64,000 nucleotides of DNA from Lepidostoma basale (Eukaryota; Arthropoda; Insecta; Trichoptera; Lepidostomatidae): positions 1 to 64,000 of the forward strand of contig JAHDVF020000462.1 of NCBI GenBank assembly GCA_022606425.2, given 5' to 3'. Made by a program: the position numbers and the translations under genes. Shown piece after piece: positions 7,755-62,195 of the stretch. A model generated the notes under the pieces. That model was not told where the DNA came from. It did no database searches and saw only the letters and a list, made by a program, of their open reading frames with translations. Numbering within the stretch: position 1 is the stretch's first letter; the number at the start of each line of letters is the position of its first letter.

Positions 7755-7810
7755 GTAACACCAACCGGTTTCGCTCCCGCCGGAGCTTCGTCAAGTTGAG
7801 AGAGTAAACT
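7755..7810 (-). ncRNA. Hammerhead-like motif, family E
   Basis: On the minus strand: TTGACGA, extra A, hairpin GCTCC-GGC-GGGAGC, GAAAC, then the self-complementary ACCGGT. Only the first base departs from the CUGANGA core. It is followed by TTGGTGTTACCAAATAAAG, a pLTR-like end. Another copy of the family is at 50580-50760. Ribozyme activity is inferred from layout only. Confidence 0.45.
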
Positions 7811-7840
7811 TAGTTTGTTTAATTAAGATTAGTTACAAAA

Positions 7841-8249
7841 ATCTCTTAGACGAATGTGTGGATATTCTGTGTATGATAGAGTGTCGAATGAAAATATAAG
7901 AAGTGAATGCGGTGCGAATGATGGTGTCATGAACAAATAATGAAAGGATCATTAAGATGGTTTGGACATATGGAAAGAATGAATGAAGAAAGAATGGTAA
8001 AAAAAATTATATGTTAATGATGTAAATGGTACCAGAAATAGAGGAAGACCAAGGAAAACGTGGCACGATCAAATAAATCAAATATTGAATGTCGGCTATG
8101 TGAGGAGTCAGAGAAATCGACGCGCGTGCATGACACGATGTATGAATGTTGAGGAAGCGAGAGAAATATGTCAGGAAAGAAAGGTGTGGCAGTCCATTCT
8201 TTCTGCCTACCCCTTCGGGGAGACGGCGTGATGGTTAGTTAGTTAGTTT
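7841..8249 (+). mobile_element. Family L LINE 3' fragment with intact GTTA tail
   Basis: Covers the segment encoding CGYSVYDRVSNENIRSECG-like residues, then LRWFGHMERMNEERM and RGRPRKTWHDQIN, the end of the protein and a clean (GTTA)3 tail. It is nearly identical to the corresponding part of 26182-27168. A missing base around 7935 (GAACAAATAATG) and an extra A near 8010 shift the frame. Confidence 0.8.
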
Positions 8250-8666
8250 ACAAAAATAAAATAGTCACAGGTATAGATAATACGCATCACGGCATTTAAC
8301 GAGTAAACATGTAGTTTTAACAAACATTTTTAGAGATAATAAGGTTTAATTGAAGTACTCAATCTTAAAAATCAAATAAATGTTGGTTATAAAAAAATCT
8401 AATTTTTATACACAAGAAAGGTTGACCCCTAATATTTCACAAGCCCCCCTTGCGTTTCGGGGCGCTAGATTTTATCAGATCATATCGTCTATCATTTTTA
8501 AAGAGACACTTTCACAATTTCCCGTTTATATGAAAATTGTAAAGGTAGCATTTTTTTTATCCGTTTGACCAGGTAACTCTAAACATTTTTTTTGCTAAAA
8601 TTCTAGAACACATCATCACCATAAGTGAATCTTAAATTTCAACGCGATTGTTTAGCAATCACACTA

Positions 8667-9160
8667 AACAAACAAACAAACTATCACGCCGTTTCCCCAC
8701 AGGGGTAGGCAGAGAGAATGAATCGCCACACTAATCTATCCTGGCAAACCTCTCCAGATTCCTCCACATTCATACAACGAGTCATACACGCACGTCGATT
8801 CCTCCGACTTCTATCATGACCAACTTTTAAAATTTAATTGATTTGGTCATGCCATGTTTTCCTCGGTCTGCCTCGACTCCGTACCGCATTTACATAATAA
8901 ACGTATACTTTCTTAACCATTTTTTCTCCATCCATGCGTTCCATATGTCCGAACATTCATAATTTTGTTCATAATACCTTCTTCCGCTCTATATTCCTTT
9001 CTTATATCAGCATTTGAGATTCTGTCGCATATCGTTCTTTCACACATACGTCTAAGGGACCTCATCTCATTCATTTATTCTGATTTCATCCTTCTTCTGC
9101 CAGTTCCATGCTTCGCTTCCATACATTAGGGATTGGACTAGAACTCCATTAAGCAATCCC
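8667..9160 (-). mobile_element. Family L LINE 3' fragment, TTTG-tail subfamily
   Basis: The 3' end is (CAAA)n on the plus strand, then CTATCACGCCGTTTCCCC and the antisense of the C-terminal coding region (GTACCGCATTTACATAATAAACG), up to the TATGGAAGCG step near 9120. Sequence differences such as GACTCGAGG... and GACCAACTTTTAAAAT set this subfamily apart from the GTTA-tailed copies. Confidence 0.75.
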
Positions 9161-9261
9161 ACTAAATAATTGAAAAGTCCAAGGTTTTTAAGGTTTAGTA
9201 AACAGTACATTTTATACTGGCTTTTTATCATCCGTGTATTGAATATACGAGTATATCATAT

Positions 9262-9520
9262 AACAACAAACCATCACGCCGGTTCCTCGAAAGGATAGGC
9301 AGAGAGAATGGACAGCCACACTATTCTATCCCGACACACCTCTTTAGCTTCCTCCACATTAATACAGCGAGTCGATTCTGATTTTTAACATGGCCAGCCT
9401 TTAAAATTTGATTGATTTGGTAATGCCATGTTTTCCTCGACACCGTACTCATTTCACATCGTTAAAGTATAATTTCTTAACCATCCTTTCTTCATCAATA
9501 CGTTCCATGTGACATAATTT
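9262..9520 (-). mobile_element. Family L LINE 3' fragment, TTG-tail subfamily
   Basis: AACAACAAACCATCACGCCGG marks the 3' end; GGCAGAGAGAATGGACAGCC and GGTAATGCCATGTTTTCC are antisense landmarks. An internal deletion removes part of the protein end (GTCGATTCTGATTTTTAAC). Confidence 0.7.
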
Positions 9521-9599
9521 TTTTTCCTTTCATTATTTATTTTTATACTAAAACTTCGGTGATTTTTTTTTAAATACATTTAATTCTAATTAATGATTT

Positions 9600-9895
9600 T
9601 CCTGTTTTTTGGTATAATTGTACTTTCTAATTACTGGTTTTCCCACTTTTATTATGTTGGTATATAATAAATGGTCTTATTGGTTTATTTTAAATTGTTA
9701 TAAATTACTGGTTTTCCTTTTTTTTTATTGTACTTTCTAATTACTGGTTTTCCCACTTTCATTATGTTGGCTTATAATAACATTATTTGTAGCTTCTTCA
9801 CCCAATTAATTTTAACTGTGACAATACCCTTTCATTTCTTGTATGTTTAATTGTCCCTTCTAATCACTGTTTATTCCCACCTTTGTTATATTTGT
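9600..9895. repeat. Local tandem repeat, about 113-bp unit
   Basis: The block TTGTACTTTCTAATTACTGG followed by TTTTCCCAC and ATTATGTTGG occurs at about 9615 and 9728, with a third, diverged unit near 9850 (TTGTCCCTTCTAATCACTG). The array is AT-rich and has no coding signal. Confidence 0.7.
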
Positions 9896-10008
9896 TTGTA
9901 AAATTGTCGACAGACTTCGCATAGTTAATTTTTACCAACCACACTAATGAGTTTTTTGCCCTAAACATATTAAGTCTTTTCATTTTTAACTTCAGTTTAT
10001 TATAACAC

Positions 10009-10045
10009 CTGTCGATGCCAACATCGGTTGGCAAAACAGCTGTCG
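10009..10045 (+). ncRNA. Hammerhead-like motif, family F (degraded)
   Basis: CTGTCGA, extra T, a perfect hairpin GCCAAC-ATCG-GTTGGC, then AAAAC, ACA-GC-TGT and C. The layout is that of a hammerhead with a 3-bp stem III, but G12 of GAAA is A here and A6 of the core is replaced. The sister copy at 62159-62195 has CTGATAA and CGAAG, so a consensus of the two is closer to the canonical core than either. Confidence 0.4.
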
Positions 10046-10249
10046 CGATACTCAAAGTACGTAAAGTAGTAAGACACAGTAAATAAAAATAAATTGTGAT
10101 ATTATAACAGTGTTATAAATTTTAACAGTAACATTTCATTATTTTTTAACGAACGCGTAAAATTTCTTTATTAAAAAAAAATCTGTTGTAATAGGTACTT
10201 GCAATGCAGCATAATTGGTTTCAGTGATAGATTGTATGAATAGGACTAT

Positions 10250-10545: not shown

Positions 10546-11282
10546 AATTCTTGAAATTATTATATGAATATTTGTATAAAAATCATTTACAATGTATTGC
10601 AAATAAGTCATAATACTTTGTGAAGCGTTGTCGTTGAAGGAGACGTTTAATTTATTTTGTGTACCGTAAATTTAACGATGGCTACGTAAATAATCCAATC
10701 AATCCTCCCTATAAACGTAGGTTTATCACCTTTGACGTATGATTATCGGTAGTTAATCTTGCCTCTAAGTAAATTAATATTTTATACGCAGCCTCCCAGG
10801 AACCGGGATGGGCGAGGTTTATTAGAGGTATCAAAAATTTAAGCGTCACATTCTGTTACACGAGGGCGCAGACTCGCTATTATTAGCCATTTTCATCTCA
10901 GGGCATAATAATTTCATCTAAATCTGAGGTGACTCCTCTGATGACGGCATTGAGCATTAAATTTGTTAAAATAACGACGGGGAGACGAAGACGTTAATCA
11001 AATATCTTATTCCATAAATACGTTATGCGCGCCCGCGGCTTTAAGCTATAAACATTGATGAGACCTTATTTTGCTGACTGTTTTTTGAGAGTTTGATCTA
11101 AAAAAAACATCGAGTTCTACGGGCATGACATTTTGTTGGAAACATTTTAATACAACAATAGAAATAATTAAGAATGAACAGCAGTGTTTTTATTCTACTT
11201 TTATTTATTAAATATTTTTATAGAATAAAAATATCAATCACAAGATGTTTTGGAGGTGACTTCCATCTTTAGGTGTAAATAC
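10546..11282. other. Unassigned intergenic sequence
   Basis: No gene or repeat was recognised. The part 10760-11060 looks single-copy and is less AT-rich (CCTCCCAGGAACCGGGATGG). It could be host intergenic or intronic sequence. Confidence 0.4.
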
Positions 11283-11955
11283 ACAACTAACTAATTATCT
11301 AACTAACCATCAGGGTAGGAAGGGTAGGAAGAGAGAATGGACCGCCATACCGTTCTGTTCTGACATCTCTTTAGCTTTCACCCCGTTCATACATCGTAAC
11401 ATGCACGTTCGACGATTTTGCCACCTTTCAGTATTTGATTAATTTGGACATGCCATGCTTTCCTTGGTCTTCCACGACTTCTCTTTTCCCTTAAACTGCT
11501 TATATACAACATTTTAACAATTCTTCTCTCGTCCATTCGTTCCATATGTCCAAACCATCGGAGGGATATTTTTTTTTACTCATGATGCAAACTTTTGCCT
11601 TACATTTCTTCCTTATTTCGTCGTTCGGTATTCTATCATGTATCGTTTTCCCACTCATTCCTCTCAGTGATCTCATTTCTACAGCACTTATCCTACTTTC
11701 ATCTTTTTTTGACAGCTCTAAGTTTCACTTCCACACATAATGCCACTATAACACCATTGTGTACTGTCATCTTTGATTAAGTTGAAATATTTATATTTGT
11801 TCCCAGCACCGACCCTTCTTTCGATATATTTCTCCATTGTTCCATCTCTTGTAAACATGCTTCCCAGATAGATAAATCCGGTAACTTGCTCAAAGGCCTC
11901 ACCGTTCGCGCTTATGTCTCAAATTGTTATACATTCTTCTTTTTCAAATACCATC
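11283..11955 (-). mobile_element. Family L LINE 3' fragment, longer copy
   Basis: AACTAACTAATTATCTAACTAACC at the 3' end, then antisense of the C-terminus and of the upstream thumb region as far as CTCAAAGGCCTCACCGTTCG (LEQVVEF...NGE in sense) and TTCTTTTTCAAATACCATC (MVFEKEE). The two short plus-strand frames at 11546-11780 are shadows. Stops and indels disable it. Confidence 0.75.
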
Positions 11956-15093: not shown

Positions 15094-15208
15094 ATTATAA
15101 CATTTTGAATGTATACAAATACTTGTTGACAAATACTGGATTTAACCCATTGCGGGTTAAATCCAGTATTCGTCTACAAGTATTTGTATACATTCAAAAT
15201 GTTATAAT
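15094..15208. repeat. Near-perfect 115-bp palindrome
   Basis: The arms start TTATAACATTTTGAATG, include TACTGGATTTAACCC next to the centre and differ at only two or three positions; the loop is five bases (ATTGC). No coding sequence. It could be a complete foldback MITE. Confidence 0.8.
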
Positions 15209-15233: not shown

Positions 15234-15600
15234 CATAAAAATTGGAGAGCCATCTCCAGGCGTTGTCTAGCAGTATGATAATTGCGTAGCCTTTCACATT
15301 GCACTAATAAAGATTTTCTGCTTAATGCATACACCTAATCTTAATAGATGGCGCTAGTGTAGATTGAACGAAAATATGTGAAGTTTTTCATTTTTCAAAA
15401 ATTTGGCAGACGTGGTGGTCGTAAGAAGGGCGGAATGGGGAATGTTCTATTACTTAAAACGATCGCTTAACCTAATCAATTTCGCATATATCTAAGTTTC
15501 ACCAGGGTATATAAGAACTGATGAAGCTTAGGTACAAGCGAAAATCTTCAATTATAATTACCATTTTGTAGTTATAATAAAAGTGTACCTTTTCTGCTTT
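15234..15600 (+). repeat. Diverged family R relative ending in a hammerhead-like motif
   Basis: The 5' part aligns with family R (ATAGATGGCGCTAG, GTGGTGGTCGTAAGAAGG, GGAATGGGGAATGTT, CGCTTAACC). The 3' part is different: CCAGGGTATATAAGAACTG begins a hammerhead-like core (15518-15543), then TCAATTATAATTACC and AATAAAAGTG. Confidence 0.6.
15512..15550 (+). ncRNA. Hammerhead-like motif with canonical core
   Basis: CTGATGA (15518-15524) is an exact match to the first core segment, followed by one extra A, a hairpin GCTT-AGGTAC-AAGC (15526-15539) and GAAA (15540-15543). The bases after it (ATCTTC) do not give an obvious short stem III or a GUC step, so cleavage is uncertain. A related, more decayed motif is at 37558-37583. 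Confidence 0.45.
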
Positions 15601-16440: not shown

Positions 16441-16957
16441 ATTCATATGAAAATTGTTGTAGTTTAATACTTAATTAAAAAAGTATTCAACGAATTCACG
16501 ATGGACATATATAACATATAATATATTGCTCTGCTCGCCTTCTCTAGCCAAAATGTTCTGCCTAAATAGTCTCCCGGCCTCCCGTGCGTTTTTTCACCGC
16601 CTCAATCTTTCCTCTTCGAACTAATCAACGTGTTTCCTTTTCATTGCTCCAAGAACATTGCTGCATCCATGTGTCCTCTTTCGACTCCTGGGAGGGGGGG
16701 GGGATGTCTCTCAATGTTCAACCTCAAGCAATCCTGGAACTTTTGATGCAAGGACCGATTCTTAAGCCGATTTTACCCTGCAAGGAAATGTTCACTTCTG
16801 ATAATAATATCAATAAGTTACATTAGAAGAGTGAATAAACAAACTTCAACCATTAAAATAATTTAAAAACTAGTCATTAAAATTAACGGAGTTCTATAAT
16901 TCCTTCTATATAAACCATACTTTGTGTTGTTGTGATGGTTTATTTATATTTTTCTTT
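16441..16957. other. Unassigned sequence
   Basis: A C/T-rich segment at 16530-16800 (with a run of nine or ten G at about 16685) has no recognisable homology. The 80-codon plus-strand frame at 16584-16826 has no supporting feature. Confidence 0.35.
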
Positions 16958-17023
16958 TTTATACACTTTGTAAATACAACAGTTATATTAAAAAAATAAA
17001 AATAATGCTTTAAAATTGTTGTT

Positions 17024-17083
17024 GTTTACATGATCTGACAGATGTTATAAAGATCTTTATAACATCTGTCAGATCATGTAAAC
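17024..17083. repeat. Perfect 60-bp palindrome
   Basis: GTTTACATGATCTGACAG... reads identically on both strands, centred on AGATCT, without a loop. A loop-free perfect palindrome of this length is unusual outside young foldback elements. Confidence 0.9.
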
Positions 17084-17105
17084 GATTTATAAATATGTAT
17101 CTTTA

Positions 17106-17136
17106 CTGAAGAAGGACTGTTTGTCCGAAACATGTC
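17106..17136 (+). ncRNA. Hammerhead-like motif
   Basis: CTGAAGA (17106-17112), extra A, perfect hairpin GGAC-TGTTT-GTCC (17114-17126), GAAAC (17127-17131), ATGTC (17132-17136). ACATGT can form a 2-bp stem III or pair between two molecules; GTC would be the cleavage triplet. Stem I is weak (TTTA against TATA). Confidence 0.55.
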
Positions 17137-17196
17137 TATATAATTTTATTTTTTTAATATAACTGTTGTGTATACAAAGTGCATAAAAAAGATAAA

Positions 17197-17740
17197 TAGG
17201 AATTTTATACGTTTAAAAGATGTGAACTTTTCTATAGTATTAATAATCTTTTGAAAATATCGTAATTAAGAAACGTATAAAAGTGCCACTCGTATAAAAA
17301 TATAGAAAACGTGTTTTTATTCATTACTAAAAATACTTATTTTTATTTATTCAAAAAGTTGTTTAATATCCCAAGTTTATTAAATTTTCCGCAATTTTCG
17401 CGCGTCATCCTTGTTACCCGGAATATACATTTCCGCGTTTGTAAATTTTTGTGACGTTTTAATAAAAACACGTGAAGGTGAGTAATAAAATTCTAGTCTT
17501 TTTTTTTGGAAGAGAGAATTTTATTAAAACAACAACACAATAAGATGGGCCAAAAGTTAATTAGTATACGTTGCTTTGACACGTTTTTTTTGTTCTTTTT
17601 TCGTTATGAAATGTCCCTTTAAAAAATTATTAATGTTCTAGCCGAATGACACGATTTAAAAAAAAAAACACGTATTAGCTTATAAACTAATTCGAATAGT
17701 ATCATCATTTGTCAAATGTTAAATAAAAATATACCATGAA
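17197..17740. other. AT-rich sequence without genes
   Basis: Nothing recognised. A short less AT-rich patch (CGCGCGTCATCCTTG, GTTACCCGG) lies at 17398-17425. Confidence 0.35.
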
Positions 17741-17838: not shown

Positions 17839-18219
17839 TAATTAAACTAAGTATTTGTCTATTTCATACTAAAAAACAACATGATTTATCTATTTGTAAG
17901 GAAAAAACATACTTATTATGATTTTATACGAATCATTATAAAAAAAATTAAAATGTTGTTATTTGAAATTTCATGATCGCCGTTCGTTTTAAATAATATA
18001 TTGTAATATATATTTAATAAACCTCTATTTTTTATTATTTATATTCGCAATATTTTTATATAATACAATTAATTACTTAATTTTGAAGTGTTATGACAAT
18101 GCTTAAAATTTATTTATTAATTGAATTTCTGAGATATTTTTTAGAAAATAACATATTCCGATATTCAAGAAAAATATTATAACTGTCGAAACTAAATAAT
18201 AGCTAACACAGGCAGACAA

Positions 18220-22867: not shown

Positions 22868-23042
22868 AACAAACTAACTAAGTAACTAACCATCACGTCG
22901 TCTCCCCGAAAGGGTAGGCAGAAAGAATGGACTGTCACACTTTTACTGATGCGGCACTCCATCCTTCTCTTTTCGCCCCGCGGGAGACGCGGTGTGATGG
23001 GTTGCGAACCTCATCGCCACCAATAGGCATCTCCCGCTCTAC
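22868..23042 (-). mobile_element. K SINE, near full-length copy
   Basis: ACTAAGTAACTAACCATCACG...AGAATGGACTGTCACAC is the L-type tail; ACTGATGCGGCACTCCATCC, GCCCCGCGGGAGACGCGG and TTGCGAACCTCATCGCCACC form the K body. The body sequence is not found in any L copy here. Length about 165-175 bp plus tail, in the size range of SINEs. Confidence 0.75.
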
Positions 23043-23141
23043 TTTAAAGAATCATGTTTACTATTGTAAATTAATAATGGAGTTTCACAAAACTAATACC
23101 TCAACCATCAAAAATGATATTGTATGATCAAGTTCGGCTTT

Positions 23142-23665
23142 CACAACAACAACAACAAAAACAACAAACCATCGCGCCGTTTTCCAATAGGGATGGGCAG
23201 GGAGAATGGACCGCCACACTACTCTATCCTGGCACACCTCTATAGCTTCCTTTACTTTCATACACGCACGTTGATTCTTCCGACTACTAACATGACCAAC
23301 CTTTAAAATCTGATTAATTTGGTCATGCCATGTTTTCCTCGGTCTGCCTCGACTCTGTACTCCGTTTACATCATTAACGTATACTTTCGTAACCATTCTT
23401 TCTCCATCCACGTGCTCCATATGTCCGAACCAACGCAGCGATCCTTTCATAATTTTGTTCATAATACCTTCTTCCGCTCTACATTCCTTTCTTATACGTA
23501 TTTGAGATTCTGTATCGATATCGTTCTACCACACATACGTCTTAGGGACCTCATCTCTAAGTACTACATTTAATCTTCTCTCATCCTTCATCTGCCAGTT
23601 TCATGCTGCGCTTCCATACATTGGGGACTAGAACTCCATCGTGAACGGCCATTTTCGCTTTCATT
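23142..23665 (-). pseudogene. Family L LINE C-terminal region, TTG-tail subfamily
   Basis: The minus frame 23085-23462 is open for about 110 relevant residues: MKGSLRWFGHMEHVDGERM, YVNDVNG, RGRPRKTWHDQINQILKVGH, ACMKVKEAIEVCQD and WRSILPAHPYWKTA. Further upstream (to 23665) frames are broken but still align with the RT thumb of 26182-27168. The tail is (CAA)n on the plus strand. No catalytic RT residues are present. Confidence 0.75.
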
Positions 23666-24097
23666 AGGCTTTCACAGAGAAATAAATCTTTAGGATGGTC
23701 GAATCTAAGATAAATATAATATTTAGATTGGTTAATCTGGGGTTGCAGATCCCTGCAGTAGTTTGTGATTCTCCCGGCTTGTGTGAATATTCATACCCCT
23801 GTGATCTTCCACTCGAAGTAGTAGCTTTGTTCCGGAGAGACAGAGCGAGACAGACAGACGCCTGTTACTTCCAACAATTAGACCGAAGATGGATGATCGA
23901 GCGTGTTACGCTATCCAAAATCTAATGTCGAGATAGAATAGCGTATAATGGAGTCAGGAGAAGACTAATCGAATGTAATCATCTAGAAAACAGACTATAT
24001 GAAAATTACGTATTTGATACGTTCATCACAAGGTCATACTTACTTATTGCATAGGTACTTCGTACATTATTGACACTAGGACTTGTAGATCGAGTCT

Positions 24098-24686
24098 ATA
24101 GTTATGGTATTTGAAAAGGAAGAATGTATGATGGATGCCGACATAAGTGCGAACGGTGAGAAATTAGAGCAAGTTAACGAATTTTGTCTACCTGGGAAAC
24201 ATGTTTATATGAGATAGAATTATGGAGAAAGATATCGGAAGAAAGGTTGGAGCTGGAAACAAAATAAATAGTGCACTCAAAATCACTACCGCAAATATAA
24301 ATATATCGACTGATGCAAAGATGGCAGTGCACAATGGAGTTCTAGTGCCGACCCTTATGTATGAAAGTGAAGCTTGGAGTTGCTAAAATAAAGAAAGGAT
24401 TACTAAGATGGTTTCGACATATGGAACAAATGGATGAGGGCAGAATGGTTAAAAAGATATATACAAGTAGTGTAAAGGGAAAAATAATTAGAAGAAGACC
24501 AAGGAAAACGTGGCAGGACCAAATTATTCAATTACTGTAAGGCGGCCATGTTCGAAGTAGAAACAATCGACGAGCGTGTATGTCACGATGTGTGAATGTA
24601 GAAGAGGCGCGAGGGTTATGTCAGTATATCCATCCTCTCTGCCTACCCCTCCGGGGAAACGGCGTGATGGTTAGTTAGTTAGTTAC
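24098..24686 (+). mobile_element. Family L LINE 3' fragment, longer copy
   Basis: Starts within MVFEKEECMMDADISANGEKLEQV-type sequence (TATGGTATTTGAAAAGG) and continues through VGAGNKINSALKI, MAVHNGVLVPTLMYES, LRWFRHMEQMDEGRM and RGRPRKTW-like sequence to a clean (GTTA)3 tail. A deletion joins EAWSC directly to the LRWF region. Several stops. Confidence 0.75.
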
Positions 24687-24904
24687 GTATTTGATAAAAC
24701 TAAATGCAACTCTTTAGGAAATATATGTAGCATGAACACATATAAATTTAAATTTTTTAAAATTCATATAAAGATATCTTTTTTTTCTAAGTGTTTACCG
24801 TCTTAGAAAATTTTACTCTAACTGTCGTCACTACATGGCGTATTTATCGTGAATGAATTTTTAATAAAATAACACTTTAAAAATTATATTTTCTTACAAT
24901 CATA

Positions 24905-25035
24905 ATCATCATCTTCTTTTAATAGATTTGACGATCTGTGGCGCAGAAATCATGTCTCCTGGGATGATGATGTCCAGCTTTTCCAGCCAGGAAATTCGTA
25001 AGCGGCCGTATACGAGTATGTGAGTCTGTCACTTT
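24905..25035 (-). pseudogene. Family Q LINE fragment
   Basis: TTTTAATAGATTTGACGATC, GCGCAGAAATCATGTCTCC and CGTAAGCGGCCGTATACG. It serves as the uninterrupted reference for 12418-12760. The 3' side (plus-strand left) begins with CATCATCTTCTTTT, an AAG-type tail on the minus strand. Confidence 0.5.
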
Positions 25036-25039
25036 CCAT

Positions 25040-25980: not shown

Positions 25981-25982
25981 AT

Positions 25983-26059
25983 TATAAGACATGCGTTCGA
26001 CTTATCATGACGTGCGCTCTACAGCGTACGTCATGATAGGTTGCACGCATGTCTTATTA
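25983..26059. repeat. Imperfect palindrome of 77 bp
   Basis: ATAAGACATGCGT...CTATCATGACGT type arms around a loop that includes GCGCTCTACAGCG. Three or four mismatches per arm. No coding capacity. Confidence 0.75.
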
Positions 26060-26181
26060 TTTCTGACATTGCTGTCCCAGACCAGATTCTTCAGACACCC
26101 TGATCCGGCAGAGGCTTTATTGATTTGTTCTCGTACTTCGGTATAAGTCTAAATTATAATAGCACTAATTAATTATAACAG

Positions 26182-27168: not shown

Positions 27169-27301
27169 TTATGATGGTGTAAAGACTTCGATAAATGTGG
27201 AGATAAATAAACTCTAAAGTGGACAAAACAGTGTTTTAATCCATATAAAATGTCGTTGTTATTATTTCAGTTAAATCATTAGATTATCTAAATATAGTAA
27301 C

Positions 27302-28929: not shown

Positions 28930-29190
28930 AAGATTGAAAACTTCAGTTTTCTAGAAGTTTTATTATATTATAGTTTATGGGATTAACAAGTTTAGCAGTA
29001 CTAAGAAATTAGGATAGTTTGATAATGCCTTAGGAACGTGAAACATTTGATAATGGCTGAGAAAGGCGAAACGTGTCATTCCCATAAAGTTTAATAAAAC
29101 TTATATAAAACAAACGTTTTCAATCGTATTAATTATTTTAAAAGTGAAGTTTTACATCATTGTTCACGAAACAATAAATAATAGTTAGTG
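28930..29190. repeat. Family A palindrome, full copy
   Basis: Left arm TTTTCTAGAAGTTTTATTAT, right arm TAATAAAACTTATATAAAAC and terminus TTGTTCACGAAACAATAA. It has two copies of the central motif: ATTTGATAATGGCTGAG with AAAGGCGAAACGTGTC (29047-29077) and, just before, TTTGATAATGCCTTAGG with ACGTGAAAC. The duplicated centre is unusual for the family. Confidence 0.7.
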
Positions 29191-32064: not shown

Positions 32065-32280
32065 AATTATTTATTGTTTCTTGAAAAATGGTGCTAAAAT
32101 CCATATTAAATAAATAATACGAATGAATAATCTAGAAGTGTTATTATATTTAATGGGAATGACATGTTTCGTCCTTCTTAGTCATTATGTCTATCATACT
32201 ATACATGTCATTCCCATAAAATATAATATAACTTCTATAAAACTGACATTTTCATTCGTTTTAATTACTTATAATAAATG
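32065..32280. repeat. Family A palindrome, full copy with short centre
   Basis: TTTATTGTTTCTTGAAAAATG terminus, arm ATGGGAATGACATGTTTCG, centre shortened to about 35 bp, then ACATGTCATTCCCATAAAAT and ATTTTCATTCGTTTTAAT. The central hairpin of the right arm is deleted. Confidence 0.7.
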
Positions 32281-34277: not shown

Positions 34278-34720
34278 ATTTATTGTTTCTTAAACAATGA
34301 TGCAACACTCCATATAAATAATTATTAGGAATGAAACTTCTAGTCTATTGAAGTTTTATTATATTTTATGGTATGACATCTTTCTCCTGTTTAGGGCATA
34401 ATCAAAAGTTTTAAATCACATATGATAATGCTTTAGAGAGTCGAAGCATGTATTCACATACAATGTAATAAAATGTCTAGAAAACTAAAGGTTTTAATTC
34501 ATTGAAAATTAAAGTAATAATGTAAGAGTTAATATTATTTTCTTAATTTCATGAACGAAATCGTCTGTTTTATAGTTGTTTTATTACAGTTTATGGTTGT
34601 GAAAAGTTTCGCCTTTCTTAAGCATTATCCGATATCTCTAAAGGCAAAATGTTTACCATTAATTAGAACAAAACTTTTAGGAAAGGGACGTTTTCATTCA
34701 TGTAACACTCGTTACACAAA
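34278..34720. repeat. Two family A palindromes in tandem
   Basis: Copy one (34278-34510): TTATTGTTTCTTAAACAATG, TTGAAGTTTTATTATATTTT, centre TATGATAATGCTTTAGAG with GTCGAAGCATGT, right arm AATAAAATGTCTAGAAAAC. Copy two (34535-34720): TTTTATTACAGTTTATGG, AAGTTTCGCCTTTC and AAAGGCAAAATG, ACGTTTTCATTCATG. Both are degraded. Confidence 0.65.
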
Positions 34721-36477: not shown

Positions 36478-36718
36478 ATGTATTGTTTCGTCAACAATAA
36501 TATAAAACTCTATATTAAATAATCAATGTGAATGAAAACGCCTTTTTCTAGAAGTTTATAATGGTTTGTGAAAATGACGTGATTCGCTTATCTAAGGCAT
36601 TATCAAATTCGAAACATGTCTTTCCCATAAACTTCAAAAAAAAATTCTTGAAAACAGACGTTGTCATTAGTATGAATAATTAAGTATGGAGTTTTACATC
36701 ATTGTTCAAGAAACAATT
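36478..36718. repeat. Family A palindrome, full copy
   Basis: TATTGTTTCGTCAACAATAA, TTTCTAGAAGTTTATAATGG, centre ATTCGCTTATCTAAGGCATT / TTCGAAACATGTCTTTCCC, right terminus CATCATTGTTCAAGAAACAA. The central stem II of the right arm is lost. Confidence 0.7.
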
Positions 36719-40752: not shown

Positions 40753-41432
40753 ATAATTCGCACCGTGAGTGTAAAACCGACGTAAGTGCAAATATACAGT
40801 TTGGGGATATGGGAGTTTAAAGATTTCATATTGTTTGGAAAAACTGTTTTGTTTTTTTAAATCGGTTTTGCACTCACGGTGCGAATTGTAGTCGTTATAA
40901 TTGTTGTGAATGAATTGCATTTTTATTTATTTATATAGAGATATATTCATTGTGGTTAAAAAGCGAAAGTAAACAAAAAGACTCCCCGCCTACTTCACGA
41001 AACACAAATAGTATTCATTTCTCCCAAAACAGTCCCCGAGCTCGGAACAAAGTTTTCCGAAAAAGATAAATCCACAACGTGTTTCGTCGCCAAAGTTACC
41101 AGAAATCTTTTAAGTGAACATCATTTACCTGCTGAACATCACTTCCTAACATTCACCAAAGTCCCATTTAACCGCGTTTTTTCATCCTAAATTTGAGCTA
41201 AAGGATGAGCGCGGATAAAGGAAAACATTCATCAAATCACGACACCGCAGAATTATGAAGAAAAATATTAACTGTTCCATTTGAAAAACTGTTATCATAT
41301 CAAAGTGTTTTTATTTAAATTCTATGAAAATATCACTACAACTGTTTCGCCTACCAATGTTGGAATCATCAGTTGTTATGTCCAAGCAAGGCGAAAAATG
41401 TTACTTCAACATATAATTATTATTATGGAGAT
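40753..41432. other. Unassigned sequence with small inverted repeats
   Basis: TTCGCACCGTGAGTG (about 40758) and CACTCACGGTGCGAATT (about 40870) form an inverted repeat with arms of about 20 bp, 90 bp apart. 40980-41230 looks single-copy. A minus-strand hammerhead-like motif is at 41342-41372 (CTGATGA, then CCAA-CA-TTGG, GGCGAAAC), whose second stem does not fit the canonical fold cleanly. Confidence 0.4.
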
Positions 41433-44852: not shown

Positions 44853-45145
44853 ATAAAAAAATATCTACCATTTTGTGATGTTTCACATTAGGTATGAACC
44901 TCTTCCTTATTCGCCTTCACTTTGTATAGTGGATTCATATTTAAATAAATATAATTACACTTGGTATTACAATACTTTATTTCACTTAACACAGACATGT
45001 TTCGGTTATAAAATAACCTTTAACAATGTACCCTATTAAAAATTAATTACACGAGTTAAAATTGTGTACATTGATAAAAGTTATATTGTAACCGAAACAT
45101 GTTTGTGTTAATTGAAATAAAAAGCTGTTATACCAAGTGTTATTA
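44853..45145. repeat. Family C palindrome (Penelope-terminal-repeat-like)
   Basis: Inverted arms ACTTTATTTCACTTAACACAG/ACATGTTTCGGTTATA and TTGTAACCGAAACATG/TTTGTGTTAATTGAAATAA. The right arm has TTGATAA, A, a GTTA...TAAC hairpin, CGAAAC, ATGT, the degraded hammerhead-like layout. The 5' extension (ATCTACCATTTTGTGATG, TTCGCCTTCACTTTG) is shared with 63612-63875 and, inversely, with the sequence just after the Penelope-like element (GGCGAATATAGAAGAA). Confidence 0.65.
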
Positions 45146-45196
45146 TATAATATGTATTCTAATAGGTAGGCCTTCATACAGACTAAAAATCTAGTA

Positions 45197-50309: not shown

Positions 50310-50550
50310 TTAGTTTCTTGAATAATGATGTAAATCTCCATATTAAATAAATCATACCAATGAAAACTGATCTGTTTTCTAGAAGTTTAATTATATTTTT
50401 TGAGAATAAAATGTTTCGTCTTGCTAAAGCACTATCATTTTTTGGCTAACATTTGATAATATCTTAGCAAGGTGATACTTGTCATTCCCATAAAATCCAA
50501 TCAAACTTCTTGAATACACATTTTTTTCATTCGTATTAAGGGAAACATGT
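50310..50550. repeat. Family A palindrome, full copy
   Basis: TAGTTTCTTGAATAATGATG, TTTTCTAGAAGTTTAATTAT, ATAAAATGTTTCGTCTTGC, then ACATTTGATAATATCTTAGC, AAGGTGATACTTGTCATTCC and TTTTTTTCATTCGTATTAAG. The core GAAAC is mutated to GATAC on the right arm. Confidence 0.7.
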
Positions 50551-50579: not shown

Positions 50580-50760
50580 TTATTTATTGGTGCATACATC
50601 CGTTATCAACACTAAAAATCAAAAACGAACCGGCTAATGCTAGCAGGTTAACAATGGTATAGTGTCTTTTGAAACCCTGACGTAGCTCTGGCGGGAGCGA
50701 AACCGGTTGGTTGTTAAAAAATAAAGTGGTATAAAACAAAATTAAAAGTTATTCTTCTAT
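50580..50760 (+). repeat. Family E repeat with hammerhead-like motif
   Basis: At 50676-50710: CTGACGT, A, GCTC-TGGCGG-GAGC, GAAAC, ACCGGT. Only the seventh core base (A to T) departs from CUGANGA. Downstream TTGTTAAAAAATAAAGTGG resembles the end of the copy at 7755-7810. ACCGGT is fully self-complementary. Confidence 0.5.
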
Positions 50761-50814
50761 TTGAATTAATATAATATTTTAATTCATATCATATTTGAAT
50801 TAATATAATAACAC

Positions 50815-50985
50815 TTATTATAACAACACTTTTTTTACCGTAACACAGAAATGTTTCGGTTATACCTAACATCATTTATCAATTTACCAAATTTTAAACA
50901 TTGATAAAGGTTTTGTTGTAACCGAAACATTACTCGTTGTTAAGTGAAAATCAGTGTTGTTGTACAAATTAGAATTGTATTAATT
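50815..50985. repeat. Family C palindrome
   Basis: Arms TTACCGTAACACAGAAATG/TTTCGGTTATAC and TTGTTGTAACCGAAACATT/ACTCGTTGTTAAGTG. Right arm: TTGATAA, A, GGTT...AACC, GAAAC, ATT. Confidence 0.65.
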
Positions 50986-51198
50986 CAAATTAAAAGTGAA
51001 TTAATATTTTATTCAATAATGCCACACCACAAATTAAATGCTTCAGAAGAAAATATGATAATTTTTTTATGAAAAAACAATGGTTGTGATATTAATTATG
51101 TATAACTCCATTTTTATTTTATAGTAGTAAACACGATTGTTAAGTGATTTTACATGGATTTAATTGACATGAATAGTGACAATAAAGGTCACTGACAT

Positions 51199-54254: not shown

Positions 54255-54615
54255 CCATATTAAATGAAAACATCGTTTTCTAGAAATTTTTGTTACATTT
54301 TATAGGAGTGAAACGCTTTACCTCACTAAGGCATTTTCAAATGTAATTAGATCACAGCTTAGCAAGGCGAAATATATTTTGTTCCCAAAAAAACGATAAT
54401 TAATATGACTGAAAGCATCGGTTTTCTAAATCTCTTATCATATTTTATGGGAAAAATATATTTTGCTTTGATAGAGCATTATCTAATGTTACATAACATC
54501 GTACATTTGAATGCCTTAGTATGGTAAAACATGTAATTAACAAAACTTCTAGAAAACAGTATTCTGCATTCGTATTATTTATTTAAAATGTAGTTTTACA
54601 CTATCTTTCAAGAAA
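54255..54615. repeat. Two degraded family A palindromes in tandem
   Basis: First (54255-54400): CGTTTTCTAGAAATTTTTG, TTACCTCACTAAGGC, TTAGCAAGGCGAAATAT. Second (54400-54615): GGTTTTCTAAATCTC, TTTTATGGG, GAATGCCTTAGTATGG, TAAAACATGT, AACTTCTAGAAAAC and a terminus CTTTCAAGAAATAA. Confidence 0.6.
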
Positions 54616-54699: not shown

Positions 54700-55247
54700 C
54701 TATTTCTTATAGCTGTCAGAATTTTTTAAATTTTATGGTAATAAACGCTCTTTGTTTGGGATAATTACAAGGAGTATAGAGGTTAACATTTCTAGACGAA
54801 ATTTGCACAGACTTCTTATAAGTTTTAAGATTTTATCTCAAAATATTAGTACCCTTTCCTCCGCATCCCGTTTAACTAAGCATGCCTTAATCGCAGCGGT
54901 TCGGTGCAGACTGAAAGAGAAACATACTCAAAATTACAAAATACGAAGAACTAAACATTTTTGCGATAATGAGTACATTTACATCAAATCCGATACCTCT
55001 TGACGATGATTTGTGAAATATTTTAACCTGTATTATTTAGTTGGCTTTATTTGCAGTTGAAAAAAATGTTTCCAAATGAGACTGTCTATATTTGCAGCTC
55101 ATGAGGAGTGTCTCAGTTAATTTTAATATTGATCATAGCTTAATACTAAAAAACTTAAGTAAAAAGAATTCATTCATTTGTGAGCTACAATTGGGGACCA
55201 CAACTCATTGGGTAAATAATTTTATAATATTTTAAATAATTATATTT
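54700..55247. other. Unassigned sequence upstream of the Penelope-like element
   Basis: An 83-residue plus frame (54752-55003) has basic, serine-rich sequence but no motif; it could be a decayed N-terminal part of a Penelope-type ORF or chance. No other feature. Confidence 0.3.
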
Positions 55248-55373
55248 ATATTTGAATTACTTTTTGATAACTTTGTATCACAACACTTTATTACACTTTT
55301 CACAGACATGTTTCGGGACACAGAAGCCCCTTCTTCAGTGTGTACAAATTTAACAGCTAAATGAGACAAAATC
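55248..55373 (-). repeat. Left inverted arm of the Penelope-like element
   Basis: Reverse complement of 56653-56778 with one single-base length difference in the AAATTT(T)AACAG step. It contains the hammerhead-like motif on the minus strand at 55301-55342. Confidence 0.9.
55301..55342 (-). ncRNA. Hammerhead-like motif in the left arm
   Basis: Inverted copy of the motif at 56684-56725, with the same core, hairpin and stem I bases. Confidence 0.55.
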
Positions 55374-55374
55374 A

Positions 55375-56574
55375 AAAAATGTTTCAAATAATGCAATTTT
55401 AAGTAATGCAAGTTTAAGCGATGACGTCAAAAAAGATTTAATTTCCTTGTATAATGTCTGCATTAATCAAAATTATTTCCAATTTAATAACAAAAACTAT
55501 AAACAGACTGAAGGATTGCCCATGGGTGCACCCACAAGCCCTTTATTTGCCGATATTTTTGTAAACGATTTAGAAAATAATTTTTTTAAATGTGATTCCA
55601 ATTTAATAAAAAATGTTTTCATTTGGAAAAGATACGTAGACGATATTTTTTGTATTTGGACAGGCACGGATAGGCAGTTAACTTCTTTCCTCACCCTTAT
55701 CAACTCCTTCCATGAACATATCAAATTCACATTAGAAATTGGACATAATAATAAACTTAACTTCCTAGATTTAACCTTAAATATAATAGACAACAAAATC
55801 AAATTTAAGATATTTCGAAAACCCACGTATACAGATAATGTAATTCATAATATGTCCAATCATCCGAGGTCACATAAACATTCAGCTTTCCATGCCATGT
55901 TGACTCGTTTAATTAATATACCTCTTTCACTAGAAAATTATAATAAAGAACTAACTACAATAAAACATATTGCTTAAAATAATGGTTACAGTGATTATCT
56001 AATCGATAATATTTTAAATAAAAAAAACAAAAATAAGTTTACTAAAACAATTTTGTATACTCCACCTAACTATAATCAGAAAAATAATCAATGGCGTAGA
56101 ATTTTATATATTAATAATCTAACAAATATAGTTTCTAAAGATCTTCCGTTAGACATTAGACCCGCGTTCTATACCAATAATAATCTAGGTAAATTGTTAA
56201 TAAATAATAAAGACAAAGAAGACAAACTAATCCAATCGGGAGTATACAAACTTAAATGCGACGATTGCCCATCTTATTATATAGGAAAAACAACGCGTAA
56301 CATTAATTTAAGAATGAAGGAGCACATTAGGTGTCTCTCAAATAATAATTTTTCCGAATTCGCGAATCATCTCATAGAAAAAGATCACTCCTTCGATAAA
56401 AATAACGGCGTTGAAGTTTTGCATATCAGTAATAGAAAAGTAACATTAAATAACCTTGAAATCCTAGAAATAAAAAAGTCGATAAAAAATAAAGAAGAAA
56501 TTATAAATAATCAAATTAATTTAACTTCCAGTCCGATACTAGATTTATTTCCCCTGTCCCATTATTCTGGCTAA
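55375..56574 (+). pseudogene. Penelope-type reverse transcriptase / GIY-YIG endonuclease
   Basis: One reading frame runs from the left arm to 56574, broken by a single TAA at 55975-55977 after KHIA; the part beyond (NNGYSDYLIDNIL...) is in the same frame. RT portion: EGLPMGAPTSPLFADIF, catalytic YVDDIF, NFLDLTLNI and FRKPTYTDNVIH with HPRSHK, characteristic of Penelope-like RTs and related to telomerase rather than to LINE RTs. GIY-YIG portion: GVYKLKCDDC, YYIGKTTRNINLRMKEHI and FANHLIEKDH, then a C-terminal EILEI..SI segment. The first conserved RT blocks and linker are missing, so about 400 codons remain of an ORF usually twice that size. No ATG fits the start. With the stop, it cannot yield a full protein. 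Confidence 0.88.
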
Positions 56575-56652
56575 AATGTAATTAACACTATTTCTTGGAA
56601 CCACCCCCACTCCTCTTTTACCGTTTTAATTTTATTTAGTATATAAGTAACG

Positions 56653-56778
56653 ATTTTGTCTCATTTAGCTGTTAAAATTTGTACACACTGAAGAAGGGGC
56701 TTCTGTGTCCCGAAACATGTCTGTGAAAAGTATAATAAAGTGTTGTGATACAAAGTTATCAAAAAGTAATTCAAATAT
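56653..56778 (+). repeat. Right inverted arm of the Penelope-like element
   Basis: CGATTTTGTCTCATTTAGC to TCAAATAT. It contains the best hammerhead-like motif (56684-56725) and the pLTR-type end AATAAAGTGTTGTG. Confidence 0.9.
56684..56725 (+). ncRNA. Hammerhead ribozyme candidate (best in window)
   Basis: Stem I CACA (56684-56687) with TGTG (56722-56725). Core CTGAAGA (56688-56694), one extra A (56695), stem II GGGGC-TTCTGT-GTCCC (56696-56711; four Watson-Crick pairs and one G-T), GAAAC (56712-56716), minimal stem III AC-AT-GT and cleavage triplet GTC (56719-56721). All universally required hammerhead core bases are present; the only departure is the unpaired A before stem II, which is shared by the other families here. 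Hammerhead ribozymes are known from Penelope-like terminal repeats. Self-cleavage is inferred. Confidence 0.6.
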
Positions 56779-56945
56779 GAATCCGCAACACAAAGTAATG
56801 GCGAATATAGAAGAAATTATATTTATATTTTATTTATATTTATCACGGATGAAGGGCTGGTTAGTCCGAAACATGTTTGGTAATTAATTTTCATTTTTTA
56901 ATAAAGAGAGTGTTGTATACAAAGTTATGGCGAACATAGAAGAAA
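56779..56945 (+). repeat. Second, diverged arm-like unit (family C)
   Basis: Starts ATGAATCCGCAACACAAAG, includes GGCGAATATAGAAGAA (as in family C) and a motif at 56846-56873: CGGATGA, A, GGGCT-GGTT-AGTCC, GAAAC, ATG. It ends TTAATAAAGAGAGTGTTGT and then repeats ATGGCGAACATAGAAG. Together with the right arm it looks like a tandem of terminal repeats. Confidence 0.6.
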
Positions 56946-56964
56946 TTAAGTGTTATTCAAATAG

Positions 56965-57155
56965 TTAATTAATACGAATGAAAAAGTCAGCTTTTTAGCA
57001 TTTTCTTTATAGTTTATGGGAATGACATGTTTCGCCTTTCAAATGAATTATCAAATTTGCGTATGATAGGCAAAACATGTTATTACCATAAACTGCTATA
57101 AAAGTTTTTAAGAACAAACGTTTTCATTCGTTTTAATTATTTAATATAGAGATAA
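56965..57155. repeat. Family A palindrome, full copy
   Basis: AATACGAATGAAAAAGTCAG, TTTATGGGAATGACATG/TTTCGCCTTTC, then GTATGATAGGCAAAACATG and TTTTCATTCGTTTTAATTA. Arms are 60-70 bp; the central hairpin is shortened. Confidence 0.7.
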
Positions 57156-60016: not shown

Positions 60017-60127
60017 CGTAGACGTATAAAAGAGTGAGCTAAGGGTGACACTATTGAAAGTGAGTGATTTATCATAGATTTTAGATAAACATAAATTATC
60101 ATGACAATTACGTTTGATAAAGAAAGA

Positions 60128-61300
60128 TTTTTTTAAATTATGTCCTTTGTGTGATTTCAAACCACTTTTACATTTGAACTTTTCTTGATATAACTGGTAA
60201 TTTCCAAGAAAAAAAATGTTATTGTTTTTTTGTATGAAGCAAAACTGATTTTTTCAATTATTTCGGAATCAGGTGGATACGTCAAAACCAAACTTAGTAA
60301 TGATTATAGAGGGCATAATCTTCTACATTACTTGTTACGACATCTACTTCATATTTCTGCCCGTTTAAAAGCAGAAGACATTATAAATTTAAATTAATTG
60401 TTACGAGTATAAAGTGGTTTCGGATTTTTTGTTAGATGCATTAATATGCTAAAATCACTCCATTCTTTTGTAAAGGAGCGCGATGATCATTTATGCATCT
60501 AACATAAAATCCAAAACCACTCATAATAATTAATTAAGATTTATAATGTCTGCTGCTTTTAAACGGGCAGATATATGAAGTAGATGTCGTAACAAGTAAT
60601 GTAGAAGATTATGTCCTCTATAATACCTACTAAGTTTGATTTTGATGTATCTAACTGATTCCGAAATAATTGCAAAAATCAGTTTTGCTTCATACAAAAA
60701 AACAACAACATTTTTTTTCTTCGAAATTACCAGTTATATCCAAAAAAATTTAAATGTAAAAGGGGTTTGGAATCACACAAAGGACCTGATTTCAAAAAAT
60801 CAGGACAAAATTCGGAGTTTGACCCCTAAGTCCATATTTTTGCCAAATGGGACCAGTGTCCGCCGGTACTTATTTTTTCGCGTTCGAGCGTTCCTTTACA
60901 AAAGAATGGAGTGATTTTAGCATAATTGTGATCATTTATGCATCTAACAAAAATTCCGAAACCACTCGTAAGAATTAATTTAAAATTATAATGTCTGCTG
61001 CTTTTAAACGGGCAAAGATATGAAGTAGATGTCCGAACAAGTAATGTAGAGGATTATGTCTTTCATAATCTCTACTAAGTTTGGTTTTGACGTATCCACC
61101 TGATTCCGAAATAATTGCAAAAATCAGTTTTGCTTCATACAAAAAAAACAAAAACATTTTTTTTCTTGGAAAATAGCTTTTATATCAAGAAAAGTTCAAA
61201 TGTAAAAGTGGTTTGGAATCACACAAAGGACCTAATTTTAAAAAACAGGGCAAAATTCGGAGTTCGACCCCTAAGTCCCTGTTTTTGCCAAATGGATCCA
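60128..61300. repeat. Family S foldback cluster, three copies
   Basis: S1 (60128-60445, minus), S2 (60482-60887, plus) and S3 (60924-61300, plus) share TTTAAACGGGCA, GAAGTAGATGTC, CTGATTCCGAAATAATTG, CAGTTTTGCTTCATACAAAA and GGAATCACACAAAGGACC. S2 is flanked by a 36-bp inverted repeat (60446-60481 and 60888-60923, one mismatch) containing ACAAAAGAATGGAGTG. S2 and S3 both end with CCCCTAAGTCC...TTTTTGCCAAATGG. No coding capacity; the family is not identified. Confidence 0.7.
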
Positions 61301-61335
61301 GTGTGCGGCGTAATGGTTAGTTAGTTTGTTAATTT
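61301..61335 (+). mobile_element. Bare L-type 3' tail fused to S3
   Basis: GTGTGCGGCGTAATGG followed by TTAGTTAGTTTGTTAA. Only the last bases of an L-type tail are present, directly after the S3 end GGATCCA. Confidence 0.55.
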
Positions 61336-61394
61336 TGTTAACTACCCCTGTATGTACTCGTATAAAAATGAGTAGTGAATAACAGTTTCAACAG

Positions 61395-61450
61395 TGTATT
61401 AATGCCAGCTAGCCTGTCGAAACCGGTCGCTGCCGAAATAAAGAAACAAA
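61395..61450 (+). repeat. Family D scrap
   Basis: GCCAGCTAGCCTGTCGAAACC, GGTCGCTGCCGAAATAAAG. Contains the GAAACCGGT step of the family with a degraded hairpin. Confidence 0.5.
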
Positions 61451-61809
61451 TTTAAAATGTTAATAATTTATATTGACAGCAGGATATCAATGGGACTCAC
61501 TTAAACCGAGAATCAATCGTAGGTAACTAAGGACGGTTGGTTTCTCGTATATATAGGATAAGTGGTAATGTGATCGAAAGATCGAATCGAGTTTTATTGT
61601 TTGAACTATCGTAAAATTATCTGGACGTATACCTTCTTATCAAATTGGACCTTTTATGTGAGGATAAGACGAGATTCTGTCATTGTGTTTGATAGAAGCC
61701 ATTGTAAAATCAAATCAAATAAAAATCACATTGTAAAAAAATTACAGTAATTACAATCAAACGATGTAACACAGAATTTCAAATTTTGATATCGGAAAGG
61801 AATATAACA

Positions 61810-61865
61810 CTGGGTTGGTTTGGACATATGAAACGCATGGATGAAGAAAGAATGGTTAAAAAAGT
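61810..61865 (+). mobile_element. Family L LINE scrap
   Basis: GGTTGGTTTGGACATATGAA, CGCATGGATGAAGAAAGAATG, GGTTAAAAAAGTA: the LGWFGHMKRMDEERMVKKV segment only. It stops where the T SINE begins (about 61890). An AAATCAAATCAAAT run at 61709-61722 resembles a CR1-type tail. Confidence 0.6.
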
Positions 61866-61889
61866 AAACATTTATGTTGTGAATTTAAT

Positions 61890-62066
61890 TTTTTTTTTCC
61901 TATAACAAGTCGTTTCAACCTACTGTATACAATTTATTTTAGCTATTATATTGATTCTCATTACATGTGATAGGTAGCCAATCTATTGCCATTTTATTGT
62001 CCTGTGTAATCTACACCAGAATCGAACCCGGGACCTTCGGTCAGAGCTCTTACCACGAAGGTCGAC
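61890..62066 (-). mobile_element. T SINE with internal deletion in the head
   Basis: Minus strand: TCGACCTTCGTGGTAAGAGC, CCGAAGGTCCCGGGTTCGAT (B box intact), then directly into TCTGGTGTAGATTAC; the GGCGATGGCAG...CACTGTC part is missing and the A box is shortened. The body and the GTTGAAACGACTTG end are present. Confidence 0.7.
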
Positions 62067-62158
62067 AAATGTCGATAATTGTCGATAATTCGCCCCCGAT
62101 GATACGATGTAATATTTTTATACGTATTTCTAATTATCGGATTTTTTGTTCATAACAC

Positions 62159-62195
62159 CTGATAATGCCAACATCGGTTGACGAAGTAGCTGTCG
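62159..62195 (+). ncRNA. Hammerhead-like motif, family F (degraded)
   Basis: CTGATAA, T, GCCAAC-ATCG-GTTGAC, GAAGT, AGC, TGTC. Compared with 10009-10045, the first core is closer to CUGAUGA and the second has kept GAA, but each copy has its own losses. Flanks ATAACAC and GCGA...CTCAAA are shared. Confidence 0.4.

Follow-up and report, generated by a model that had tools for sequence, protein, structure and literature searches.

The core of a hammerhead ribozyme consists of C3 U4 G5 A6 N7 G8 A9 and G12 A13 A14, with a pair between C3 and G8. The minimal hammerheads of Penelope-like elements (PLEs) are of type I, have little or no stem III, occur in the terminal repeats of PLEs in thousands of copies in many genomes, and dimerise as double hammerheads by way of a palindromic loop of stem III (Cervera and de la Pena 2014; Lunse, Weinberg and Breaker 2017; both as described in citing papers). 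Double hammerheads in eukaryotes need such a palindromic terminal loop together with a tandem arrangement (PMC6466107). Metazoan retrozymes without long terminal repeats are tandem repeats without an open reading frame (ORF) that carry a type I hammerhead, form circles of about 170-400 nucleotides (nt), and have been proposed to be mobilised by PLEs (PMC7229834). The Penelope families of Adineta vaga and other animals have inverted head-to-head terminal repeats, 5' truncation, an endonuclease ORF, target duplications and an optional tail on one of the repeats (PMC3846280). Here we describe a hammerhead-like motif in 64,000 nt of the trichopteran Lepidostoma basale (contig JAHDVF020000462.1, positions 1 to 64,000; the whole stretch is called the window) and in the 769-Mb genome assembly of 1572 contigs. 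From the architecture of the motif, the covariation of its stems, its association with ORFs in the lineages read, and the inverted structure, target duplications and tail asymmetry of its carriers, we think it very probable that these are self-cleaving hammerhead RNAs of the PLE kind, situated in PLE terminal repeats, in 5'-truncated inverted copies and in a short family that we call F2.

The motif has a short stem I; a single unpaired A or U separates A9 from G10.1 at the start of stem II, and stem III is reduced to a step. An initial annotation of the window had claimed that such a layout recurs, and had proposed a search with a descriptor allowing one bulged base before stem II. Our strict descriptor (YTGANRA, 0-2 unpaired bases, a stem of at least 4 pairs, GAAA; both strands) matches seven places with one unpaired base against 0.10 expected from 30 dinucleotide-shuffled windows (4057+, 15518+, 17106+, 50901+, 56688+, 55311- and 7769-), one place with zero (0.13 expected) and none with two (0.10 expected). 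The five examples that had been singled out, 15518-15543, 17106-17136, 56684-56725, 7755-7810 (minus) and 50676-50710, are all present; the last has A9 replaced by T and was missed by the strict scan and recovered by the covariance model, and the copy at 15518 is without the C after GAAA. Hairpins of the GCCAAC/GTTGGC type also exist as claimed (10017, 62167), but both copies are decayed, the first with a CTGTCGA core and AAAA in place of GAAA, the second, as GCCAAC/GTTGAC, with GAAG. In the genome, CTGANGA-N14-GAAAC occurs at 17,369 places (143 for the reversed pattern as control) and TTGANAA-N14-GAAACNTGTC at 18,175 (control 4), which makes 35,544 places for these two non-overlapping patterns, and the recurrence of the layout can be regarded as confirmed. 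A covariance model trained on 57 copies, including seven window copies, has 16 matches in the window at E <= 0.01, the E-values being rough. The same model (R1) gives 70 matches at this level in the 198 kb of loci L009-L028, which is no density estimate as these loci were picked around CTGANGA-N14-GAAAC matches. Among the genome matches listed there are also a family, CTGATGATAACATTGGTTATCGAAAC, that does not fit the layout, and a CTGATGATAACATNNGTTANCGAAAC family (G000:C2:1428687-1428712, G000:C1:316412-316437) that keeps the core letters but does not accommodate a stem II after one unpaired base. Rfam miRNA and snoRNA matches were all below the gathering score, and the aligned ones are mostly long hairpins.

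The alignment of genomic copies that had been proposed was made on 57 copies, 56 of them distinct, after 11 of 68 had been removed by hand, mostly close relatives of rows kept. Since YTGANRA and GAAA were the criteria by which rows were chosen, the invariant letters are present in all of them by design. Given the hammerhead structure, 82.8% of the cells are paired against 59.8% in shuffles and 23.8-45.0% in slid controls, and 128 cells have changes on both sides against 52 in shuffles. In stem II all cells are paired, but the rows were chosen for pairing, and the variety of pair types is the informative part. Stem I played no part in the choice; 68% of its cells are paired, changes on both sides are seen at all 4 pairs, and on average 2.99 of 5 pairs form, compared with 1.94 when permuted (maximum 2.38 in 2000). 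Its variants include TATCA/TGATA, TACAC/GTGTA, CACA/TGTG and AACC/GGTT, and the stem is weak in F2 and in the GCCAAC family. At the core pair 3-8 we find C-G in 41, U-A in 10, U-G in 2 and something else in 3 of the distinct rows, and thus C3-G8 or U3-A8 in 51 of 56. The claim, made for the hairpins, that pairing is kept across families while letters change is supported, and stem I and the core pair covary as well.

With the GAAACNTGTC step, CTGANAA (C3-A8) is found at 765 genome places (control 0) and TTGANGA (U3-G8) at 801 (control 1), and C3-G8 with this step is bounded only by the CTGANGA-N14-GAAAC count, which has a looser step. These counts indicate that the core pair is mainly C-G or U-A, and most of the C3-A8 and U3-G8 matches (100 listed of each) look like single-letter decay of the same families. 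The U3-A8 exchange is a natural covariation in several hammerheads that is active in vitro (PMC3088659); the swap is identical here, but it characterises one family with 18,175 strict matches and is combined with an extra base. In stem III, A15.1-U16.1 is A-U in 49 of 56 rows and the second pair is present in 39 of 56, while position 17, which should not be G, is C in 54, T in 7, A in 4 and G in 3 of 68 copies. Of 68 copies, 43 have a fully self-complementary step after GAA, reading ACATGT, ACCGGT, ACTAGT or ACAGCTGT; a self-complementary step with differing letters is what a stem III common to two molecules needs.

The extra base before stem II is the rule, as the initial annotation had it. 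In the window and the sampled loci (20 stretches of 9.9 kb and 20 of 1.2 kb, picked around CTGANGA-N14-GAAAC matches) 71 copies pass the descriptor, 68 of them with one extra base, two with none and one with two. It is A in 38, T in 29 and C in one of the 68, counts in which copies within a family are not independent. Among 100 CTGANGA-N14-GAAAC matches listed, 82 have one extra base (with a stem of at least 3 pairs) and two have none. Canonical spacing, with stem II (G10.1-C11.1) directly after A9, was rejected as a description, fitting only 2 of the 71 copies and 2 of the 100 matches. The base is A in the four PLE lineages described below and mostly A in the GGAC family; the GGAGG and GCCAAC families nearly always have T, and so do most F2 copies. 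C or G followed by the NTGTC step is found at 635 genome places (control 5). The plus hammerhead of chrysanthemum chlorotic mottle viroid (CChMVd) has an extra A (A10) between A9 and G10.1, and its change to U raises the rate while C or G is strongly harmful (PMC3705267). The family-wide A or U of our motif agrees with this constraint. Both systems have one extra base at this point, but CChMVd is a viroid and our motif belongs to retroelements and has only a step as stem III. As the extra base is a tolerated exception in CChMVd, we call the motif a hammerhead variant and not a consensus hammerhead.

The carriers that can be identified are Penelope-type retroelement DNA, in agreement with the initial annotation. 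A 5'-truncated PLE in the window (Table 1) combines reverse transcriptase and GIY-YIG endonuclease in one element between inverted, head-to-head terminal repeats of 108 nt, which are 98% complementary and each carry an outward-pointing motif. The one in the right arm has CTGAAGA, an extra A, a GGGGC/GTCCC stem II, GAAACATGTC and stem I CACA/TGTG. A genome search with the GIY-YIG piece, in which 150 of 9633 candidates were scored, found many copies 97-99% identical and others down to 56%. Fifteen flanks downstream of the ORF, picked from the 150 across the identity range, were read, and the motif was found in 12, eight of them strict and four decayed (L065-L068, mostly of the GGAC type). The strict ones come from four lineages whose GIY-YIG domains are 45-73% identical: lineage 1 (L058, L059) with GGGGC/GTCCC and the step ACATGT, lineage 2 (L060-L063) with GCTC/GAGC and ACCGGT, lineage 3 (L064) with GCTTGG/CCAAGC and ACTAGT, and lineage 4 (L069, a decayed ORF) with a U3-A8 core, GGTTAC/GTAACC and ACATAT, which is not fully self-complementary. 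For lineages 2-4 the identification as PLEs rests on homology of the GIY-YIG end. An inverted motif lies 5' of a lineage 2 copy (L074), and a second lineage 3 copy (L071) has a flank without the motif. GIY-YIG fragments adjoin motifs in four sampled loci (L043, L027, L010, L034), which are strongly 5'-truncated copies of the same build. No parent with an ORF came to light for the GGAGG and GCCAAC families.

The families had been called unrelated, and this does not hold. To judge from their sequences, those with readable parents are sister PLE lineages of shared descent whose stems have been rewritten, and the motif is most simply seen as inherited, since homologous GIY-YIG ORFs are followed by a hammerhead at a common position on their 3' side. 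Of the suggestion of several independent lineages, the plurality can be kept and the independence not. The proposal that much of the palindromic repeat content bears ribozymes was too wide, as the motif lies in or between the arms of five (I8, I13, I17, I18, I19) of the 25 longest listed inverted repeats among 213 in the window.

F2 is the largest family and has a U3-A8 core, an extra T and the hairpin GCCTTAGAAGGGC. A search with the unit gives 11 distinct matches in the window, and extrapolation from this one window puts the genome total of the order of 10^5. Fifteen adjacent F2 pairs less than 1500 nt apart, picked by eye among the TTGANAA-N14-GAAACNTGTC matches listed, comprise eight minus-plus, three minus-minus, two plus-plus and two plus-minus pairs; for all families in the sample, 15 of 25 pairs are minus-plus (4 minus-minus, 3 plus-plus, 3 plus-minus). 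The gap between the two motifs ranges from 3 to 577 nt in eight pairs. Thirteen head-to-head F2 elements were tested, three from the window, three from sampled loci and seven fetched for closely placed motifs, with the pairs in L012 and L049 and the L013 array left out. Six of them have a direct repeat of 9-12 nt at their outer ends, compared with none of 150 mismatched end pairs. A tail of about 40 nt, GAGTTTTACAACATTG, usually continuing to GTTCAAGAAACAAT, is found on exactly one arm in 10 of the 13, all six with duplications included (the cut-off of 12 of 16 letters is reached by 7 of 500 random window stretches). F2 thus shows the one-arm tail and the variable target duplication of PLEs.

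Like retrozymes, F2 also forms direct tandem units that each have a hammerhead. At L049 (324-1108) a 134-nt unit is present in 5.8 direct copies and once inverted, with a U3-A8 motif per unit, and at L013 four successive matches about 103 nt apart and one inverted; the other copies examined had no such arrays. The 134/135-nt units of L049 alternate in a 269-nt period. The F2 units of 103-135 nt are shorter than the circles of metazoan retrozymes, and many of the copies read stand as head-to-head pairs, their minimal hammerhead having an extra U and a U3-A8 core. Compared with the described Penelope families, the present repeats have identified hammerhead motifs, and one family is without an ORF as far as found: at the F2 copies examined, tblastn gave no GIY-YIG homology, and the combination of reverse transcriptase and GIY-YIG was not seen. 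F2 is therefore at most a non-autonomous derivative. One locus, L082 (G000:C2:1179450-1180250), contains an F2 pair with about 100 nt of extra inverted sequence upstream of each motif and no recognised ORF, and is perhaps a piece of a longer F2 parent. A bolder and rather doubtful idea is that F2 stands on its own as a head-to-head retrozyme, its RNA of only about 100-135 nt consisting of a hammerhead (extra U, U3-A8 core) and a tail. This RNA would be processed to monomers or circles and inserted by the PLE protein through snap-back priming of the second strand, and may have reached the order of 10^5 copies in one genome.

With only a self-complementary step as stem III, the motif most likely works as a dimer, formed by tandem copies or by two RNAs. 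We hypothesize that the repeat is transcribed and that hammerhead dimers would cut the multimeric RNA after GUC. The PLE protein, which may mobilise F2 as well, would use an AT-rich cut to start complementary DNA (cDNA) synthesis at an internal site of the RNA close to the tail. The 3' end of the cDNA would then stop in or before the hammerhead, snap back and prime the second strand, which could give head-to-head inserts with a one-arm tail and a target duplication of 9-12 nt. For an Anolis PLE, reverse transcription starts internally in the RNA and matches the genomic tail, and the hammerhead cuts only together with the protein (PMC11167929). Self-priming with palindromes at head-to-head joints has been proposed for Penelope (PMC3846280). 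The ribozyme should be masked by the antisense arm wherever a transcript is head-to-head, and if active it acts in tandem or single-sense RNA. A lineage 2 PLE copy with a long open frame (L073, compared with L061; G000:C916) has its 5' end about 7 nt past the predicted cut site, and such a start would fit a cut template.

Four other explanations have been weighed. A short motif could resemble a hammerhead by chance or low complexity, but the shuffles, the reversed-pattern controls and the covariation make this negligible. That hammerheads arose several times independently in unrelated repeats would account for the differing letters of stem II, step and stem I. In the lineages read, however, the motif keeps its place 3' of PLE ORFs that are homologous and shares an unusual extra base, which independent origins would not be expected to repeat, and we find this explanation highly improbable. 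F2 and similar palindromes could also be DNA transposons of the type of miniature inverted-repeat transposable elements that have captured a hammerhead-like sequence, as they are short, inverted, very numerous and flanked by target duplications, and no ORF was found in them. The varying length of the duplications (9-12 nt), the tail on a single arm in 10 of 13 pairs, the wide range of gaps and the direct tandem arrays with an inverted end all speak against this, being habits of PLEs (PMC3846280) more than of terminal-inverted-repeat elements, and we find it very unlikely.

The motif could instead be kept for a role in DNA or cDNA, as a snap-back hairpin, a protein binding site or a start signal for reverse transcription, and no longer be a ribozyme. 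PLE insertion in vitro does without the ribozyme (PMC11167929), head-to-head copies set an antisense arm beside each hammerhead that should hide it, and the F2 heads adjoin CATTTGATAATG, which can itself fold back. A hairpin role in DNA leaves unexplained the covariation of the core pair, the prevalence of C at position 17 (54 of 68 copies) and the near restriction of the extra base to A or U as in an active viroid hammerhead, and we judge it unlikely.

Some observations weigh against a functional PLE-kind hammerhead or its proposed mode of insertion. The search with Rfam hammerhead covariance models that had been proposed was made with Rfam 15 and gave no window match at the gathering score or at E <= 10, and none at E <= 10 in six selected loci. 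Sixteen of the 100 CTGANGA-N14-GAAAC matches listed fit neither the one-extra-base nor the canonical stem. Two of the five covariation measures are weaker, pairs with both-side changes being 8 against 7.0 (reached by 56 of 500 shuffles) and further pair types 28 against 23.9 (5 of 500). The self-complementary step is found in no more than the 43 of 68 copies and not in the lineage 4 copy read, and RNA folding of monomers and dimers did not cleanly or always return the hammerhead fold and was not used. In three of the 15 ORF flanks the motif was not found. Seven of the 13 F2 pairs have no duplication of at least 9 nt, one (window 36490-36706) has a tail on both arms and two (L010, L050) on neither, and no autonomous parent of F2 was found. 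In the Anolis assay, insertion did not depend on the ribozyme, and the cut site was not the end of any read (PMC11167929). At the L076 joint, the one inspected in detail, the cDNA ran through the cleavage site, and its template was thus uncut; we read this joint as a cDNA end inside the hammerhead hairpin, probably primed on its own ACA/TGT. Taken together, L076 and L073 are two cases and decide nothing on template cutting.

Table 1. Hammerhead-like motifs, F2 copies and Penelope-like element features in the window.
Feature	Positions	Strand	E-value and remarks
5'-truncated PLE between inverted arms	55244..56782	+	arms 55244-55351, 56675-56782
PLE reverse transcriptase piece (RVT_1)	55354..55974	+	PF00078 E 1.3e-7
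PLE C-terminal ORF piece with GIY-YIG endonuclease	55978..56571	+	PF01541 E 7.7e-5
Lineage 1 motif, right arm	56676..56737	+	covariance model E 6.6e-11, training member
Lineage 1 motif, inverted 5' arm	55289..55350	-	covariance model E 2.3e-10, training member
Second, decayed copy downstream of PLE (CGGATGA core)	56834..56893	+	E 1.5e-9
GGAC/GTCC family (PLE lineage of L080)	17095..17149	+	E 3e-12, training member; in inverted repeat 16942-17203
GCTT/AAGC family (hairpin as lineage 3, L064), decayed after GAAA	15507..15565	+	E 4.8e-6, training member
GCTCC/GGAGC family, step ACCGGT (hairpin type as lineage 2)	7747..7806	-	E 3.7e-5, training member
GCTCT/GGAGC, step ACCGGT, A9 to T	50665..50724	+	E 1.6e-6
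U3-A8 core, GGTT/AACC family (as lineage 4)	50889..50949	+	E 9e-8, training member; inverted repeat 50771-51012
Head-to-head GGTT-family pair	44978..45119	44978-45038 minus, 45059-45119 plus	E 1.2e-5, 5.1e-5; inverted repeat 44949-45148
Further hammerhead-like copy	11226..11284	-	covariance model alone, E 0.00026
Weak hammerhead-like copy	41323..41384	-	covariance model alone, E 0.0045
Weak hammerhead-like copy	54294..54352	-	covariance model alone, E 0.0051
Decayed GCCAAC/GTTGGC copy	9997..10058	+	E 0.47
Decayed GCCAAC/GTTGAC copy	62147..62215	+	E 0.99
F2 head-to-head pair, tail on right arm	3901..4158		plus motif TTGATAA T GCCTTAGAAGGGC GAAACATGTC at 4057
F2 head-to-head element, 230 nt	50313..50542		target duplication AAACATGTTTA at 50302 and 50543; tail on left arm only
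F2 head-to-head element	36490..36706		tail on both arms; no duplication of at least 9 nt found
F2 copy	29043..29165	+	E 6e-14
F2 copy	32085..32188	-	E 3.3e-10
F2 copy	34293..34409	-	E 1e-8
F2 copy	56963..57056	-	E 3.7e-10
F2 copy (weak)	54504..54605	+	E 5e-6

The window also contains long inverted repeats in which the hammerhead layout was not found (60126-60801, 8001-8914 and 15094-15208), a transposase ORF of the Mariner/Mos1 type at 42096-42917 on the minus strand (Transposase_1, E 1.7e-26; HTH_48), and an RVT_1 domain of another retroelement at 26357-27235 on the minus strand, with several inverted relatives close by (22875-26925).

PLE hammerheads as such are already published. In the present motifs the extra base and the U3-A8 core are family-wide features, which may set them apart from the minimal PLE hammerheads as these are described in citing papers. 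We found no published description of an extra base in PLE hammerheads or of inverted retrozymes, with the primary reports of 2014 and 2017 covered through the papers that cite them. With an A or U regularly added, a U3-A8 core in very many copies and the tiny inverted elements of F2, the present set looks like a new variant. A search that requires stem II to follow A9 immediately would overlook motifs of this class, and since no Rfam 15 hammerhead model matched here, genome counts of such ribozymes may be too low. The sister lineages, with their stems rewritten, the mass exchange of the core pair and the agreement of the extra-base letters with published mutants amount to a natural experiment on the hammerhead core. 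The F2 family unites two open questions, what moves the retrozymes of animals and what causes the inverted inserts of PLEs, and it is small enough for both to be tested.

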